DNA of 64,000 nt from contig JABAQQ010000018.1 of the NCBI GenBank assembly GCA_019187225.1, positions 62,001 to 126,000 of the forward strand, written 5' to 3'. The stretch comes from Saprospiraceae bacterium (GTDB taxonomy: Bacteria; Bacteroidota; Bacteroidia; Chitinophagales; Saprospiraceae). A model generated the notes under the pieces. The model did no database searches. It was given only the letters and a program-made list of their open reading frames with translations, and was not told the DNA's origin. Each line of letters starts with the position of its first letter. Position 1 is the stretch's first letter. The translations under genes were made by a program, and so were the position numbers. Positions 9,042 through 59,416 of the stretch are shown here, piece by piece.

Positions 9042-9050
9042 CCAAATTTT

Positions 9051-9171
9051 GATTTAAGATTGCAGATTACATGATTTAAGATTTTAGAAGTTACCCGGCG
9101 TGACATCGTAAATACAAATTTCATACATCCATATCAAAAATCTGCAATCATGTAATCTGCAATCTTAAATC
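9051..9171. repeat. Heptamer (GATTnnn) cluster with 26-bp perfect inverted arms
   Basis: The left arm 9051-9076 is built of GATT-headed heptamers (GATTTAA, GATTGCA, GATTACA). Its exact reverse complement is at 9146-9171. The pair occupies most of the gap between kinase and regulator and starts 10 bp after the kinase stop. A 26-bp stem with a 69-base loop could form in the kinase-regulator transcript. Confidence 0.85.
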
Positions 9172-9196
9172 AATCAAAATCGAAAATTCGCCTGCC

Positions 9197-9946: not shown

Positions 9947-9958
9947 TTTCATTGAAAC

Positions 9959-10071
9959 ACATAGGCACATGCAGAGCCGGACGTTGGACTTTTAGACCTT
10001 GGAAACCAATCATTTAGTCTAATGTCCAAGGTCTAAAAGTTCAACGTCCGGCTACGTATGTGCCTATGTAT
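9959..10071. repeat. Long imperfect hairpin with arms of ~46 bp
   Basis: The left arm (9959-10004) and right arm (10024-10071) are near-perfect reverse complements, including GCCGGACGTTG and CTTTTAGACCTTGGA. The loop contains AACCAATCATTTAGTC. The loop and the adjacent TTGGACA-like units recur at 20811-20886. It lies between the response regulator and decarboxylase genes. Confidence 0.85.
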
Positions 10072-10090
10072 TTGAAAAATAAAAACAGCT

Positions 10091-14002: not shown

Positions 14003-14062
14003 ATTTTGGATTGCGGATTTTGGATTGCGGATTGCAGATGGCTGATTTTGGATGGCTGATTG
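14003..14062 (+). repeat. GGATTGC heptamer cluster after HPD
   Basis: Directly after the HPD stop (TGA at 14000-14002) come tandem variants of GGATTGC/GGATTTT (TTGGATTGCGGATTTTGGATT...). No full inverted arm is visible here. Same family as 54154-54192, 56642-56734 and 58303-58341. Confidence 0.75.
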
Positions 14063-53597: not shown

Positions 53598-53628
53598 CAA
53601 AGGTAATTTTTCAATGACGATTTTCAAA
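53598..53628 (-). promoter_or_regulatory. Consensus Bacteroidota promoter of the Uma2 gene
   Basis: On the minus strand TTTG (53628-53625), a 19-bp spacer, then TACCTTTG (53605-53598) match the consensus exactly. The -33 box overlaps the last codons of the upstream dehydrogenase gene. Confidence 0.8.
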
Positions 53629-56600
53629 AATCGAACCGTACCCAGTCTATTGCTATGACTCCGCGTCCCTGATCCTGCAGATTTTTGAAAACAAAATACA
53701 GGTCGCAAAAATGGTTGAGCGTGGTTGAGCGTGGTTGAACGTGGTTGAGGAGGAGGTCAATTTTTCTCTCTTCAAAAATCATGCGCCCGCTGTTTTTCGA
53801 TTCAAAATTCATCTCTCCGATCAAAGTTCCGTTCGGACTGCCTGCGCGGATCTCCATTCGCCCGCCCGCGTAGGGATAACGTTTATCGCCGTAGCCTGCG
53901 CGCAACATCAGCGAACGAACGCCGGTCAAATCCACTTCGCGGAATACAAAATAAGCATTGTGTTTCAACTCGTTGAGCACCATCGTATCGTTGTCGAAAG
54001 GGCGGTAATTGCCTACGCCGTCGCTTCGGGCGTCGCATTTTTCGGCCTGCATGACAGCGGGGCGAAGGATCAGGGTTTCACTGTTTTCGAGCGGTGGAAG
54101 TCCCTTCGCGCCCCGGTCGCGGTAACTGGCTCTGAAGATGTATGCGCCCGGTTCCGATTGAGGATTGCGGATAGTGGATTGCGGATTATTCGGGTCAAGG
54201 ATGAATATTCCTGAGAGGGGTAATGTCTGCACAGGTTTGGGCGGGTCGCCGAGCGAGAGAATCCACAGCGACATCTGAATGGCTTCTTCTTCGCGTATCT
54301 GCGGATGCGGCGTCATATAAGAATGACCCCAGTTGCCCGAACCGCCGTAAATGATCTTGCGGTAAATGATTGGCACGGCAAAGGCCACGTTGTTGCGGTA
54401 ACGCTCAGCGATGGCCTGGAACGAAGGGCCGTTCACCAGCCGGTCCACGGCGTGACAACTTTTGCAGTCGGATTGTTCCACAAGGCGTTTGCCTTCGGCG
54501 AATTTTTCAGGGGACGCGCCGGCAGCTACCGTTTTTTTGAGCGTTGCAGGATTGATACCTTTTTCCAGATAATCCACCGAAGTTGCGATCGCGCCCGGAG
54601 CGATACCTCCGTATTCCCAGGTCCCGTCCTCACGGTCTTCCACCATCAGCCGGTAACGCAGCGTGTCGCCGGGCTTGTAAAAACTGCGGTTGCGCCCGCT
54701 TATATCCCAATGTACGACGGGAGGCTCGTTGCCCACGTGGAATTTTATTGTTGAAACGGCGGAAGCACCCACACCATCAGTGAGTTTCAAAGTCGCTGTA
54801 TAAATGCCCGGTTTTTCAAAAATATGGGCGACGCTATCCAAATTATTTCGCCGTGCGCGGGTCTTTTGTTTCAGGCCGTCCGATGCGTGTACGGGGTCAA
54901 AAGACCCGCGCAGGGTAGAAGAATTGTCACCAAAATCGAGATCATAAATTAACTCCCCGCCGTCGTAATCTTTTGATTTTGAAAAAGAAAAAACGACTTC
55001 ACAGGGCACAGCGCCGGCGGTTTTGTTCACCTCCAATACCGGAACCGGCGGGCGGTTGCCCCGCACGAAATCAATCCGGCTGAGGCGGGCATCTTCGTTG
55101 GAAGAGTACCAGCGCGTGCCGTATTCGAGCACCCAAAGTGAGCCGGTCCGCCGGTCGATCAGCATATCCATCGGGCGGCTCAGCCGGACGGAATCGGCGA
55201 AGGGTTCGAGACGGTGAAAATTGCCCAGACTGTCGAGCGTAACGGCCATGAGCCAGTTGCGCATCCAATCGTAAATGATGAGTTTGCCGTCATAGTATTC
55301 GGGGAAACGAGTGCTTTCCGGGTATTCATCGCAGTAATAAACCGGCCCGGCCATCGCGTTGCGCCCTCCTATGCCTGCGATGGGAAAGTCGCGGTTTTTG
55401 CCGTAGGGATACCAGATGAAAGCGGGTTGAGCAGGCGGGAGTTCGCGGGCGCCGGTGTTGTTGGGCGATTCATTTACCGGGTGTTGCGGATTAAAATACG
55501 GCCCTGATTTTTTGGTAGTAAAATCATAATCGCGATAAGCCTGGTTGTCGGCTACGAAATAAGGCCAGCCATAAAAGCCGGCCTCGCGGGCGCGGTTGAT
55601 TTCGTCGTGGCCGAGTGGGCCCCGCGCGGTGTCGGCCTTGCCGGCGTCGGGGCCGATGTCGCCCCAGAAAAGAAATTTGCGGCGCGCGTCGCAGGAGATG
55701 CGAAAAGGATTGCGGCAACCCATGATGTAGATTTCGGGAGCCTCCCCTGCCCCCCCCATGAGAGGGGAAAAAGCGCGCGCTCCTTGCCTCTCGGAAAAAG
55801 AATGGAGAAGAGACCGTACCTCCCCCTCATAGGGGGGCCGGGAGGGAGTTACATGCACATCTTTTTGAACAAACAAATTCCCCGCCGGGCATACATATCC
55901 TCCATCCTCCAACGGCTTTATTCTCAGTATTTTACCTCTTAAATCATTCGTATTTGCCGCACTTCTCTGCGCATCGAATGCCTGCCTGCCGGGTCGCTCG
56001 TCTGTCGGCGTGAAGCCATCGGAAGCGAAAGGACTGGTGTTGTCGCCTGTTGCCAGAAAGAGATTTCCTTCCGCATCGAACGCCATGCTGCCTGCGGCAT
56101 GGAAACAATCCTTATGGCCGACGGGAATGGTGAGCAGCACTTTTTCAGAAGTTCGGTCGAGCGTATCGCCCCGGAAAACGAATCGTGAAAGTTGATTCAT
56201 CGAATCGCGCAGCGAGGAATAGTAAAGATAAATCCAGTGATTTTTTTCCCAACCCGGATCAATGGCCACGCCGAGCAGTCCATCGCCCATTTCGGAATAA
56301 ACGGGCAATTTTGTCACAGTGCTTAGCAGCCCGGTTTCGGGTTTGAACAGTTTGATCTGGCCGTGCCGTTCGATCAGGATGATTTGCCCGTCGGGGAATT
56401 GAGCGATTTCCATAGGTTCCTGCAAATCGCTGGCGATCACGGTTTTGACAAATCGCGTAGGGTCGGGCGCACGGGGCGTACGGCAGCGGTTGTAGTTCAG
56501 GGGGCGATTTTTTCCGATGGCGTACAGCAATCCGCCGAGCAGGTGTTGCCGGAACGCCGGATCGCTGTACGATTCGGGAATATGGCCGAGGGCGGTATAA

Positions 56601-57328
56601 AAAGCGCGACCGCCGTCGTATTCGTGGCGCCAGGCCAAAGGGTGATTGGGGATTGGGGATTTCGGATTTCGGATTTCGGATTTCGGATTGTGTGTAGCAT
56701 CCGCAATCCGCAATCCGCAATCCGAAACCGGCATGCTGCCACCCTGATAGATGTTTTCATCCACTGTCAGCAGGATTTCCAGGTCGGGTTCGTAGTTGCG
56801 GAAGTTGTAAATCTCTTCTTTCCAGCGCCAGGGCTGGCAGTCGAGGTGCCGGGTGGACGGATCGGAGCAGTTTTCTACATTCAAACTGACTTCCTGAATA
56901 GCAGGGTGATCTTTGAAATAAGCGCCCAAAAGTCCGCCATACCAACGCCAGGTGTATTCTGTGGCAGAAGCGGAATGGACACCCATGAACCCGCCGCCGG
57001 CCTGGATATAGCGTTCAAAGTCGGCTTCCTGGCGAGGGTCGAGCACTTCGCCGTTGGTATTGAGAAACACGACGGCGGCATAGCGTTTGAGATTTTCTTC
57101 GTTAAAAAACGCCGAATTTTCAGTTGTGTCAGCCAACACACCATTTTCGTAGCAAAGTTGCGTTAATGCTTCTTTGCCCGCTTCGATGCTCTGGTGCCGG
57201 TAACCGCTTGTTTTGGAAAAAATAAGCACACGCGGAGGCGTATCCCAGCGATGGGAACAGGCAACAAAAAGAAGGGAGCCAAGAGCGGGACACCAAAAAC
57301 AAAAGATAAAAAACAGGCAGCGGCTCAT
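53624..57328 (-). CDS. ThuA - PQQ sugar dehydrogenase - PKD - cytochrome c lipoprotein with in-frame repeat insertions
   Basis: A 1,234-residue exported protein. The lipoprotein signal ends LLFVAC (Cys24). A ThuA domain covers ~33-280 (VLIFSKTSGYRHQSI, HPLAWRHEYDGGRAFYTALGH). A glucose/sorbosone dehydrogenase propeller spans ~290-755 (GLLGVAIDPGW, GNLFLATGDN, PEIYIMGCRNPFRIS). A PKD domain covers ~760-865. The cytochrome c has haem motif CKSCH (955-959) and Met1005, and a C-terminal beta/CBM6-like domain follows. It probably oxidises a sugar and passes electrons to its own haem. Four stretches are repeat-derived and foreign to the families: residues ~199-229, ~491-529, ~1046-1059 and ~1194-1206. 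All keep the frame. The ATG at 57328 starts the lipoprotein signal; a codon at 57388 is less likely. Confidence 0.88.
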   Translation of the reverse strand: MSRCLFFIFCFWCPALGSLLFVACSHRWDTPPRVLIFSKTSGYRHQSIEAGKEALTQLCYENGVLADTTENSAFFNEENLKRYAAVVFLNTNGEVLDPRQEADFERYIQAGGGFMGVHSASATEYTWRWYGGLLGAYFKDHPAIQEVSLNVENCSDPSTRHLDCQPWRWKEEIYNFRNYEPDLEILLTVDENIYQGGSMPVSDCGLRIADATHNPKSEIRNPKSPIPNHPLAWRHEYDGGRAFYTALGHIPESYSDPAFRQHLLGGLLYAIGKNRPLNYNRCRTPRAPDPTRFVKTVIASDLQEPMEIAQFPDGQIILIERHGQIKLFKPETGLLSTVTKLPVYSEMGDGLLGVAIDPGWEKNHWIYLYYSSLRDSMNQLSRFVFRGDTLDRTSEKVLLTIPVGHKDCFHAAGSMAFDAEGNLFLATGDNTSPFASDGFTPTDERPGRQAFDAQRSAANTNDLRGKILRIKPLEDGGYVCPAGNLFVQKDVHVTPSRPPYEGEVRSLLHSFSERQGARAFSPLMGGAGEAPEIYIMGCRNPFRISCDARRKFLFWGDIGPDAGKADTARGPLGHDEINRAREAGFYGWPYFVADNQAYRDYDFTTKKSGPYFNPQHPVNESPNNTGARELPPAQPAFIWYPYGKNRDFPIAGIGGRNAMAGPVYYCDEYPESTRFPEYYDGKLIIYDWMRNWLMAVTLDSLGNFHRLEPFADSVRLSRPMDMLIDRRTGSLWVLEYGTRWYSSNEDARLSRIDFVRGNRPPVPVLEVNKTAGAVPCEVVFSFSKSKDYDGGELIYDLDFGDNSSTLRGSFDPVHASDGLKQKTRARRNNLDSVAHIFEKPGIYTATLKLTDGVGASAVSTIKFHVGNEPPVVHWDISGRNRSFYKPGDTLRYRLMVEDREDGTWEYGGIAPGAIATSVDYLEKGINPATLKKTVAAGASPEKFAEGKRLVEQSDCKSCHAVDRLVNGPSFQAIAERYRNNVAFAVPIIYRKIIYGGSGNWGHSYMTPHPQIREEEAIQMSLWILSLGDPPKPVQTLPLSGIFILDPNNPQSTIRNPQSEPGAYIFRASYRDRGAKGLPPLENSETLILRPAVMQAEKCDARSDGVGNYRPFDNDTMVLNELKHNAYFVFREVDLTGVRSLMLRAGYGDKRYPYAGGRMEIRAGSPNGTLIGEMNFESKNSGRMIFEERKIDLLLNHVQPRSTTLNHFCDLYFVFKNLQDQGRGVIAIDWVRFDF
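53712..53751. repeat. Four GTTGAGCGTG decamers inside coding sequence
   Basis: TGGTTGAGCG, TGGTTGAGCG, TGGTTGAACG and TGGTTGAGGA in tandem on the plus strand, translated on the minus strand as part of LNHVQPRSTTLNHF. Same 10-bp period and GTTGA core as the intergenic decamer clusters. Confidence 0.8.
54154..54192. repeat. GGATTGC heptamers inside coding sequence
   Basis: Tandem GGATTGCGGATAGTGGATTGCGGATT on the plus strand, translated on the minus strand as NNPQSTIRNPQSE, between the cytochrome c and the C-terminal domain. Confidence 0.8.
55742..55858. repeat. CTCCC/GGGAGG palindromic insert inside coding sequence
   Basis: A G/C-run-rich segment with local palindromes (for example CCCCCTCATAGGGGGG) and CTCCC/GGGAGG ends, translated as a ~39-residue loop (PSRPPYEGEVRS ... 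FSPLMGGAGE) in the middle of the dehydrogenase propeller. Family members go straight from GNLF plus a short linker to PEIY here. Confidence 0.75.
56642..56734. repeat. Heptamer inverted repeat inside the ThuA coding region
   Basis: Four to five GGATTTC units (56657-56690) face three inverted units CCGCAAT (56701-56721). Translated on the minus strand as CGLRIAD...HNPKSEIRNPKS between YQGG and HPLAW of the ThuA domain, where related proteins have only a few residues. Confidence 0.85.
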
Positions 57329-57369
57329 GTTCGAACGGCATTCAAAATATTTGCGAAAAATAGGAGAAG

Positions 57370-57399
57370 TTTGGACAACCCAGGGCATTGCTACATTTG
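57370..57399 (+). promoter_or_regulatory. Bacteroidota promoter of the Bat operon
   Basis: TTTG at 57370-57373, 18-bp spacer, TACATTTG at 57392-57399. The ATG of the first gene is 18 bp downstream. Confidence 0.75.
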
Positions 57400-57417
57400 C
57401 TAAAATTTAAACCGAAC

Positions 57418-58347
57418 ATGCATATTCGGGATGGCCTTCTTTTATTATTTCTGTGCTTTGCAGCCGGCGTCGCTGCTCAAAGTGCGAATGCCGTTTTTGA
57501 CCGAAATGCGGTGGAAACGGGCGATACCTTTGTGCTGCGGGTAATGGTGACCGGCGTCAGTGCCGAACCGGGCAAAGTGGATTTTTCTCCCTGGCGCGAC
57601 CTGCTACCATCCGACAATGTGCTCTCCCAATCCGCCTGGACGCGGACAGGAGGGCGCTGGGTGCGTCAATTCACTTTGATAACGTTCGATAGCGCCACCC
57701 TCCGCTTGCCTCCGCTTAAAATATTGTTGCGTTCCGGCGATTCCATGCTCTCCAATCCGCTCGACCTCGCGGTGAAACCCACTTACGCCACCACCGATGT
57801 GAGCGATGCAGAAACCATTCGCGACATCCAGCGCGAACCGCTCTTGTGGACGGATTATTGGCCCTGGGGTTTGGGGGGTGTATTGCTTTTATTATTGATG
57901 ATCTGGTTGTTACGGAAAAAAAAGCCGAAACCTGCCGTTGCGGTTCATCTACCACCCCAGCCGGCGCCTGTTGTGCCGCCGCACCAACTGGCTTTGCAAA
58001 AACTAAACATTTTGGAACAAAAACAACTGTGGAAACACGGAGAAGTGGAGCAGTTTTACGCAGAGTTAAGCTTAATTGTACGGGAATATTTAGAAGGCCG
58101 TTTCGGAATTCCCGCACTGGAATCCACTACGCGTGAGATTTTGCCGTTGATAAAAAAAGCGGGTTTTCCGGACAACCTCGACGGGGTGCTGCGCGAACTC
58201 CTGCAAAAATCCGACCTGACGAAATACGCACAACATCCTCCTTCCCAAACATTTCACGAAAAAGCCCTGCACATGGCGCGGCAGTTAGTTCTTGCAACGA
58301 CACCGCACAATCCGCAATCCGCAATCCACAATCCGCAATCCAAATGA
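57418..58347 (+). CDS. BatD-like/DUF4381-type membrane protein of the Bat operon
   Basis: A 309-residue protein with a signal peptide (1-20, ends GVAAQS), a periplasmic beta-rich domain of ~120 residues (VETGDTFVLRVMVTG), one transmembrane helix (~150-167, GLGGVLLLLLMIWLL), a Pro-rich linker and a cytoplasmic helical domain (LWKHGEVEQFYAELSLIVREYLEGRFG). This architecture is usual for the gene just before batA in Bacteroidota. The last residues PHNPQSAIHNPQSK are translated GGATTGC-family repeat, and the stop overlaps the batA start (ATGA). No MoxR or DUF58 gene precedes it. The operon is thought to act in envelope stress or aerotolerance; the molecular role is unknown. Confidence 0.75.
   Translation: MHIRDGLLLLFLCFAAGVAAQSANAVFDRNAVETGDTFVLRVMVTGVSAEPGKVDFSPWRDLLPSDNVLSQSAWTRTGGRWVRQFTLITFDSATLRLPPLKILLRSGDSMLSNPLDLAVKPTYATTDVSDAETIRDIQREPLLWTDYWPWGLGGVLLLLLMIWLLRKKKPKPAVAVHLPPQPAPVVPPHQLALQKLNILEQKQLWKHGEVEQFYAELSLIVREYLEGRFGIPALESTTREILPLIKKAGFPDNLDGVLRELLQKSDLTKYAQHPPSQTFHEKALHMARQLVLATTPHNPQSAIHNPQSK
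58303..58341. repeat. Inverted-orientation GGATTGC heptamers at a gene end
   Basis: CCGCACAATCCGCAATCCGCAATCC-type tandem units that encode the last residues of the BatD-like protein (HNPQSAIHNPQSK) and stop just before the ATGA overlap with batA. Confidence 0.8.
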
Positions 58348-59333
58348 CTTTCGCCCAACCCTATTGGCTATTGCTTCTCCTGTTGCTCCCCGTGTTGATG
58401 TACGGCTACCGGCGCACGGCCAACAACCGCCACGTCGCCCTGCAGGTATCGCGGCAGACCGCTATGCGCGGTGTGAAGACCTGGGTGGTGTATGCCCGCA
58501 AATGGATACAGGCGCTGCGCTGGTTGGTACTGGCATTGTTGATCGTGGCTATGGCGCGTCCGCAAAAAAGATGGTACGAGGAAAAAATTGAAGCCGAGGC
58601 GCTCGACATCATGCTGGTGATGGACATTTCTCCCAGCATGTTGACCAAAGATTTCAAACCCGACCGGCTGACGGTGGCGAAACAGATGGCCAACGACTTT
58701 GCCAGCCGGCGGCAGTATGACCGGATCGGGTTGGTGGTGTTTTCGGGTGGCGCTTTCACCCAATGCCCGCTCACCAACGACCGCCGCATTTTGCAGGCTT
58801 TTATCAACAATTTGCAGGTAGGCAGGCTGAAAGACGGCACGGCCATCGGCATGGGCATTGCCACCGCAGTAAATCACCTGAAGGACAGCGAAGCCAAAAG
58901 CAAAGTGGCCATCGTACTGACCGACAGCGAACAGAATGCGGGGGAGGTCGGACCGGTAAAAGCGGCCGCCATCGCCAAAGCGTTGGGGGTAAAAGTATAT
59001 ACCATTGGGTTGGGGACAGAAGGTACCGTCATGTCGCCGACTTACCAAAACTTCGACGGGTCGTTCGATTTTGCAGCGCGGACAATGACGTTCGACACAA
59101 AATTGCTGGAAGAGGTCGCCCGGTTGAGTGGGGGCCAATTCTACCGGGCCCGCACTTCCGACGATTTGAAAGGAATTTACACGGAAATAGACCGCCTGGA
59201 AAAAACAAAGATCACATCCGCTGCGGTACGGCGTACGCTCGATTATTTTTTTTGGCTGCTCGACGCGGCTTTTTGCCTGCTGGTGTTGGAAATGCTGTTG
59301 CGGTGGGGTCCGTTGCGGGTAGTGACATCTTAA
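58344..59333 (+). CDS. batA: BatA-type von Willebrand factor A membrane protein
   Basis: A 329-residue protein with two N-terminal transmembrane helices (7-20, ~57-72 in WLVLALLIVAMARP), a vWA domain ~88-285 and a C-terminal helix (YFFWLLDAAFCLLVLEML). The MIDAS residues are DISPS (DxSxS), Thr in KDGTAIG and Asp in LTDSEQN, so metal binding should be intact. It overlaps the previous gene by 4 bp (ATGA), which implies coupled translation. BatA and BatB are paired vWA proteins of the Bat (Bacteroides aerotolerance) locus. The stop is followed within 1 bp by a decamer hairpin. Confidence 0.88.
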   Translation: MTFAQPYWLLLLLLLPVLMYGYRRTANNRHVALQVSRQTAMRGVKTWVVYARKWIQALRWLVLALLIVAMARPQKRWYEEKIEAEALDIMLVMDISPSMLTKDFKPDRLTVAKQMANDFASRRQYDRIGLVVFSGGAFTQCPLTNDRRILQAFINNLQVGRLKDGTAIGMGIATAVNHLKDSEAKSKVAIVLTDSEQNAGEVGPVKAAAIAKALGVKVYTIGLGTEGTVMSPTYQNFDGSFDFAARTMTFDTKLLEEVARLSGGQFYRARTSDDLKGIYTEIDRLEKTKITSAAVRRTLDYFFWLLDAAFCLLVLEMLLRWGPLRVVTS

Positions 59334-59416
59334 GGGTTAATGAAGGTTGATAAGGGTTTATAAAGTTGATAATCAACCCTTATTAACCTTTATCAACCCT
59401 CATCAACTTCATCAAT
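59333..59416. repeat. Decamer repeat hairpin between batA and batB
   Basis: The left arm has units GGGTTAATGA, AGGTTGATAA, GGGTTTATAA, AGTTGATAAT. The right arm has AACCCTTATT, AACCTTTATC, AACCCTCATC, AACTTCATC. Both arms keep a strict 10-bp period and fill the whole 84-bp gap between the two genes. Confidence 0.9.

Follow-up and report, generated by a model that had tools for sequence, protein, structure and literature searches.

In-frame repeats in a putative lipoprotein gene of a Saprospiraceae bacterium and the genome-wide population of short arrays around it

The host gene and its four repeat segments

The window analysed here is a stretch of 64,000 nucleotides from a Saprospiraceae bacterium (GenBank assembly GCA_019187225.1, contig JABAQQ010000018.1, positions 62,001 to 126,000), and our subject is one gene in it, encoding a putative lipoprotein and carrying four segments of repeated DNA within its reading frame. 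The genome, a draft assembly of 73 contigs, is called G000 in the following, and the window lies on its contig C15; the relatives' loci and genomes are given L and G numbers. The gene and its four repeat sites are:

53624..57388, minus strand: host gene, putative lipoprotein with matches to ThuA, glucose/sorbosone dehydrogenase, PKD and cytochrome c
56642..56734, minus strand: site 1, heptamer hairpin, residues 219-249, including SDCGLRIADATHNPKSEIRNPKSPIP, within the ThuA match
55742..55858, minus strand: site 2, double G/C-rich palindrome similar to a doublet of repetitive extragenic palindromic (REP) elements, residues 511-549
54154..54192, minus strand: site 3, degenerate GGATTGC heptamers whose C-rich strand encodes NPQSTIRNPQS, residues 1066-1079, past the cytochrome c match
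53712..53751, minus strand: site 4, array of decamers whose coding strand is CACGCTCAAC, read as HVQPRSTTLN, residues 1213-1226

Counted from the first ATG, the protein has 1254 amino acids, while the model of a simple gene caller begins later; by eye we recognised the string LFVAC (last residue 44), which resembles a lipobox and suggests a start near residue 21. The ThuA match covers residues 53-290, and the dehydrogenase match has its best stretch at 322-509 and a second one further on. Homologues of the protein come mostly from Bacteroidota, the nearest (68% identical) from a Saprospiraceae bacterium.

Repeat finding in the window recovered all four features that the initial annotation had reported. 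Site 1 starts with a G-rich arm (GGATTGC), followed by a C-rich arm (GAAATCC, then CCCAATC), and Tandem Repeats Finder (TRF) called two arrays in it, 56657-56689 (GGATTTC, 4.7 units, 100% match) and 56699-56724 (3.7 units, 100%), which together make an inverted repeat. TRF also called the degenerate heptamers of site 3 (54156-54187, score 43) and the decamers of site 4 (53712-53749, score 69). The RNA of site 1 is predicted to fold with -39.1 kcal/mol (z -5.5) and that of site 2 with -62.5 kcal/mol (z -2.9, an equally good fold being reached by 1 of 200 shuffles), while sites 3 and 4 fold no better than their shuffles; a search of Rfam returned microRNA models below the threshold only, which we judged to be chance matches. 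When copies of the gene were shuffled by codons, an array of 7, 8 or 10 bases with a score of at least 40 appeared in 2 of 300 copies and three arrays in none of 300; the repeats in the host gene are not a product of chance. Within the window, the motif GGATTKCGGATTKC was matched 24 times with up to two mismatches, where 3.3 matches were expected. As regards the view that the gene holds three kinds of repeat which are intergenic elsewhere, the three kinds are indeed there (heptamers at sites 1 and 3, a decamer at site 4, a palindrome at site 2), but dispersal in the genome, including its intergenic DNA, is shown for the heptamer only. A search of G000 for the site-4 decamer twice in tandem, allowing two mismatches at most, gave no other place, although other decamers do occur there, and the one further copy found of the palindrome lies inside an open reading frame (ORF).

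The alignment of homologues took in nearly full-length ORFs at 20 of 29 loci of relatives, together with those on contigs C12 and C54 of G000 and one each from genomes G007 and G009; nine of 30 loci, where the ORFs were only partial, did not enter the counts of gained residues, nor did an unrelated ORF of L031. The closest orthologues, L002 and L003 (from G007 and G009, respectively), are 68% identical to the host protein and have none of the four segments. Compared with L002, the host protein gains 28 residues at a single point at site 1, 24 in two pieces of 12 at site 2, 12 at site 3 (the same against L003) and 4 at site 4, all in frame. Over all homologues compared, the host protein is the longest at every site: it gains 14 to 30 residues at site 1 (23 homologues), and with 24 homologues each the gains are 12 to 37 (site 2), 2 to 12 (site 3) and 3 to 7 (site 4). 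Since ordinary gaps of 6, 3 and 4 residues against L002 exist elsewhere in the protein, site 4 is unremarkable if judged on length alone. Site 1, site 3 and the first half of site 2 rank in the top 5% of positions for insertions in 21 other homologues. The alignment thus agrees with the initial annotation that the segments are in-frame additions at loops or joints between domains; loops conserved as protein were not seen in the aligned rows, yet at site 3 most relatives have natural loops of similar length.

Residues 45-1244 were modelled with AlphaFold2 from 22 sequences; the model was of moderate quality, with a mean predicted local distance difference test (pLDDT) of 65 and a predicted template modelling score (pTM) of 0.44. 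In the model, positions 173-203 (residues 217-247), flanked by two strands, fall below pLDDT 50 and correspond to site 1, and two further segments below this value, 1028-1032 and 1171-1181, each with a strand on either side, overlap sites 3 and 4. This counts in favour of a position in loops for three of the sites. Site 2, directly behind the first dehydrogenase stretch and between CPAGNLF and PEIYIMGCRN, falls in a wider region of low confidence, and as it is poorly modelled, its placement in a loop rests on the alignment. In the paralogue on contig C54 of G000 (L034), the loop equivalent to site 2 holds the heptamer-derived peptide DNPQSPIPNPQS, with PSTVNHQPSTV further along.

Short tandem arrays across the genome

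The arrays were counted in a sample of 2.07 of the 7.18 Mb of G000, where TRF found 355 arrays with periods of 7, 8 or 10 bases; they fall into 123 unit classes, 82 of which were seen once, and triplet periods, which do exist, were left out by design. Period 7 is the commonest (206 of 850 TRF rows), the class AATCCGC accounts for 34 rows and another class for 27. The main units, GGATTGC, GGACGGT and GGACGTT, contain tracts of two G only, and a unit with a longer G-tract, AATCCCC, accounts for 9 rows. For 110 of the 355 arrays a reverse-complement arm lies within 120 bases, compared with none in the reversed-sequence control. Three exact units of GGATTKC are found 134 times in G000 (66 forward, 68 reverse; reversed control 0), and in only five of 100 genomes searched, G000 included, the other four having 15, 5, 2 and 1; G009 has none. 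The density of period-7 arrays per Mb is 99 in G000, while small samples gave 88 in G021, 75 in G022 and 12.5 in G062 (0.08 Mb each) and 0 in G007 (0.16 Mb). The relatives G007 and G009, nearly without GGATTKC arrays, allow a comparison of states before and after. In G022, another species, we also noted a heptamer array with KSAIRNPQSV in frame within a 512-residue ORF (L326, contig C296).

With gene models from a simple purpose-made caller (87.3% coding), the 7-, 8- and 10-base arrays form 296 clusters in the sample, 46 inside gene models, 83 at their edges and 167 intergenic. The 46 in-gene clusters, 40 with a 7- or 8-base array and six with period 10 only, sit in 40 gene models, and by extrapolation from the codon shuffles about three of them are probably expected by chance, above all among the six with period 10 only, to which site 4 belongs. 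Additionally, 20 gene models of the sample have a 3' end that overlaps an array. An earlier count under different criteria gave 31 clusters in 29 ORFs; the Pfam scan of 20 of these besides the host gene named, among others, the MurF-Alr fusion, UvrA, a UvrD-like helicase, phosphoenolpyruvate carboxylase (PEPC) and GcvP, and also MeaB, a PolX-like protein, DUF5682, TruB and an M36 peptidase. Non-triplet tandem arrays thus reach housekeeping genes here.

A simple arithmetic rule governs how such DNA is read. Since 7 and 10 each exceed a multiple of 3 by one, an array traverses all frames, and each of its strands encodes a single repeating peptide; for heptamers this peptide has seven residues, is spelled by three units (21 bases) and is identical in every frame, and because 7 is not a multiple of 3, a heptamer without stops stays open whichever register it is read in. 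None of the 51 arrays inside gene models has a stop in any frame of its coding-strand unit, and the 26 arrays whose units have stops on both strands are confined to gene edges or intergenic DNA. The strand is not used evenly, as the C-rich strand is the coding one in 32 single-arm arrays inside genes and the other strand in 3, a count that omits 11 of the 46 in-gene clusters (five hairpins and six without skew). With hairpin arms counted too, the in-gene arrays that are stop-free on both strands still show a ratio of 27 to 9, and therefore stops are not the whole cause of the bias. The order of arms in inverted pairs of G000 is fixed, the G-rich arm coming first in 39 of 39 pairs and the C-rich arm in none; with periods 14 and 15 added the count is 46 of 46, and by another count 34 of 34.

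A unit that is not a multiple of three raises the question of phase variation, where one heptamer gained or lost would shift the frame and switch the protein off, and the 100% matching units of both site-1 arms are of the kind on which such switching could act. Several in-gene arrays are mixed or degenerate, though, and stand in housekeeping genes, where switching would presumably be costly, so we regard phase variation as improbable.

Comparison of further genes with their relatives

The comparison with relatives was extended to five further genes, and by this comparison two hold clear insertions (UvrA and MurF-Alr), one a partial insertion (PEPC) and one none (TruB), with MeaB left ungraded. 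UvrA is longer by 26 to 41 amino acids than the 12 relatives that span the site, the 13th being a fragment. The MurF-Alr fusion has 28 residues more than the three orthologues closest to it and, across 13 relatives, 1 to 35 more; PEPC gains 2 to 16 against 13 relatives. Besides its hairpin of 148 nt, UvrA (L106 9050-12148, on contig C4 of G000) has a second, N-terminal heptamer array (PSTVHRPPSTV). The equivalent MurF loop of another species, G010 (L217), contains the tandem heptapeptides SHLVPRT-SHLAPRT-SHLQPRT.

Two explanations can be weighed on these comparisons. The loops might be ordinary functional features of their proteins, with the DNA repeats incidental, for natural indel loops of other sequence and similar length do exist in relatives (site 3, PEPC, TruB, and MurF in G010 and G020). 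This seems improbable too, because the DNA consists of near-perfect non-triplet repeats, unrelated proteins share the same peptides, and for the host gene, UvrA and MurF the closest orthologues lack the loops. An artefact of assembly or binning, which a draft in many contigs could invite, is very improbable: the arrays of the host gene, UvrA and MurF lie well inside contigs, the protein that flanks them in the relatives is intact in one frame, and random errors would break frames.

Origin of the segments and comparison with known systems

Site 2 needs separate treatment. Its two G/C-rich palindromic halves fold together, which is the REP form of a short palindrome in an inverted dimer. No second copy was found within the window; BLAST against G000 gave a next best match with E 0.03 and 13 other matches, of which two (C20 and C19) were inspected, and a regular-expression search of the 2.07 Mb returned the window copy and three hits next to a Y1 transposase gene, with no other palindrome resembling that of site 2. 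A pattern search found the further copy in G000 (C20:82983, inside an ORF of 891 residues) and also copies in G020 and G033, with the reservation that so narrow a pattern, which does not even match the copy in the window, may leave copies uncounted. The matches at G007:C3, G009:C3 and G000:C19 are not palindromes, and the match in G071 is not within an ORF. By eye, similar palindromes are present in ORFs of G003, G007, G017, G020 and G025, and an intergenic doublet in G022. The palindrome looks like a member of a rare, degenerate, REP-like family.

As has been proposed for REPs, the repeats could be elements similar to REPs or to miniature inverted-repeat transposable elements, moved into genes by a transposase such as a Y1 enzyme of the REP-associated tyrosine transposase (RAYT) type. 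The doublet form of site 2 and the similar palindromes in ORFs of related genomes agree with this, as does contig C665 of G033, which holds both a palindrome copy (1-20) and a Y1 transposase (1313-1657). On contig C3 of G000, three CCCCTTCGGGGTTAGGGG repeats (164330-165305) adjoin the Y1 transposase gene at 165960, likely as a REP/RAYT pair. Nevertheless, G000 has three Y1_Tnp matches (C9, C3 and C24) against two each in G007 and G009, the very relatives that are nearly free of GGATTKC arrays, so an expansion of Y1/RAYT is not seen; none of the three genes is on the window contig C15, hence there is no RAYT gene near site 2, and most unit classes are single. Mobile insertion as the general explanation is in our opinion unlikely, although not strikingly so: Y1/RAYT transposition may apply to site 2 and has no support for the heptamers. 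The initial annotation's idea that coding regions are invaded accordingly stands insofar as many other coding regions of G000 hold repeats, and is not supported as invasion by a mobile element, given the many unit classes and a Y1 count that is not raised. Loss of SbcD as a reason for the accumulation of hairpins was rejected, since G000 has one SbcD match below the cut-off, like most of the same-genus relatives searched.

At the other end, the arrays could have grown de novo in each gene from a chance seed by slippage alone, without any dispersal. The diversity of unit classes and the site-4 decamer, not found elsewhere in the genome, are in favour of this, while the 34 and 27 rows of the two largest classes would hardly be reached from chance seeds, and inverted pairs with one unit in both arms require more than slippage. 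We consider slippage on its own unlikely, to about the same degree as mobile insertion.

In-frame repeat insertions into coding DNA are best known from Rickettsia and from REPs. The Rickettsia palindromic elements (RPE) were reportedly described by Ogata in 2000 and 2002. Heptamers of the short tandemly repeated repetitive (STRR) type are found in functional RNA genes of cyanobacteria (rnpB and the tRNA-Leu intron), thus in RNA, unlike the protein-coding arrays of G000. RPE are in-frame repeats in unrelated genes (PMC10969869), and in this they resemble the insertions seen here against relatives in the host gene, UvrA and MurF-Alr; they are, however, families of elements of about 150 bp with a conserved peptide, whereas here units of 7-10 bases form arrays of many unit types, with no single length or sequence. 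REPs include palindromes and dimers inside ORFs, many of them coding 20-30 amino acids, uvrA among the genes concerned (PMC3733652, 2013). The palindrome dimer of site 2 inside an ORF has this form, but only one further copy of it was found here, and the heptamer arrays are not REPs. Coding palindromes are also known from Nematomorpha (PMC6649704).

The heptameric G-rich repeats of Xanthomonas and Nostoc occur as inverted pairs with a strand bias, and in Xanthomonas as convergent inverted pairs of which 7-11% overlap an ORF (PMC4692102). They are similar to the arrays of G000 in being heptameric, tandem and mostly intergenic (46 of 296 clusters being in gene models here), but their units, GGGAATC or GGGGA(C/T)T, have G-tracts of the quadruplex type, unlike the two-G units of G000, and the consulted text of that account contains no analysis of in-frame insertion such as the present one. 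TAACTGA heptamers in Beggiatoaceae, Cyanobacteria and five Bacteroidetes (PMC4679880) are likewise direct repeats with a patchy distribution and long arrays in some Bacteroidetes; they have a single unit, lie mostly upstream of start codons in the genome studied, and the parts of the report consulted do not describe coding insertion. The tandem repeats of Borgs are recent and create disordered protein regions, with ORF units all divisible by three (PMC9879509), unlike the in-gene units of 7, 8 and 10 counted here. Among the papers listed by a search with the exact heptamer and peptide strings, none concerned these repeats by title or start of abstract, and non-triplet heptamer arrays in frame in many core genes were not found among the listed results of the literature searched, whose scope took in few subscription journals. 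Coding repeat insertions and heptamer arrays are thus both already known, and their combination as seen here was not found within that scope.

The genome holds a large, lineage-specific population of short tandem arrays of 7, 8 and 10 bases, often as inverted pairs. To hypothesize, they would arise at many sites or get there by a copying or re-seeding step. At birth, slippage could grow the array and fold-back template switching could make the inverted arm, which would explain the one arm order. Those surviving in coding DNA would be free of stops, add a net multiple of three bases, and lie in a loop tolerant of length change, where they would be read as hydrophilic loops (peptides of the NPQSAIR and PSTV type). 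The host gene would then have experienced four such events, namely the heptamer arrays of sites 1 and 3, the decamers of site 4 and the REP-like double palindrome of site 2. We think it quite likely that lineage-specific arrays are formed or copied at many sites and that selection keeps the frame-neutral coding ones in indel-tolerant loops. What we observed includes the presence of the arrays, segments shorter or absent in relatives, open frames, the scale, and the biases of strand and arm order, and to these local array growth with copying fits at least as well as mobile invasion; translation into loops, selection as the filter and the step of birth are our inferences from them.

Several results weigh against this explanation. 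An array inside a gene model is in frame by construction, and gene-breaking arrays would be scored as edge or intergenic; with 123 classes in 355 arrays the units are not one family. The C-rich strand is also the coding one by 56 to 19 between co-directional genes (Fisher p 0.044 against the in-gene count), so the strand bias cannot come from selection on the peptide alone, and no such bias is seen at gene edges (16 to 24). Both inverted pairs of G021 have the arm order reversed, the one pair of G022 being G-first. In the host protein, site 3 is only 2-3 amino acids longer than in 20 of 24 homologues, neither site 4 nor the second half of site 2 coincides with a position prone to indels in the 21 other homologues, and because 334 of the 1200 model residues are below pLDDT 50, the overlap of such segments with the sites is partly expected. 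As to the further genes, the MurF-Alr gain is only 1 and 5 against G010 and G020, whose loop has its own repetitive protein text, and PEPC gains 2 amino acids only against L243/L244. The heptamer-like stretch of TruB is ruled out as an insertion (-1 to +4 against 13 relatives), and for MeaB match lengths only were compared, giving an excess of about 8-10 residues over G006, G016, G018 and G020 and none over G007/G009.

A more far-reaching proposal, which we put forward tentatively and rate below even chances, is that in this lineage a replication-linked process, blind to the frame, keeps making arrays of 7-10 bases with inverted copies in fixed arm order. As heptamers give the same peptide in every frame, such a process would steadily add new hydrophilic loops to core enzymes, and would do so more than once at one place, the cases cited being site 2 in the host gene and its paralogue and, by protein text, MurF in three genomes. 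Whatever the process, the frame-blindness of heptamers is a simple reason why such DNA can turn into protein, in a host that is presumably free-living, judging by the habit of its family.

Further repeats of the window were noted outside the host gene:

58308..58341, plus strand: heptamer array coding the last residues, HNPQSAIHNPQSK, of the neighbouring gene 57388-58347
14003..14062, plus strand: intergenic GGATTGC/GGATTTT heptamer array

A decamer hairpin (TAAGGGTTGA / ATCAACCCTT) stands at 59331-59415, at the end of gene 58344-59333, and long inverted repeats at 9952-10076 (arms of 52 nt, 88%) and 9049-9173 (arms of 40 nt, 93%) were not called as tandem heptamers. Elsewhere in G000, C4:277065-277176 holds 16 perfect GGATTGC units in a row, seen as 14 successive matches to three units, and would be a good marker of variation in unit number.

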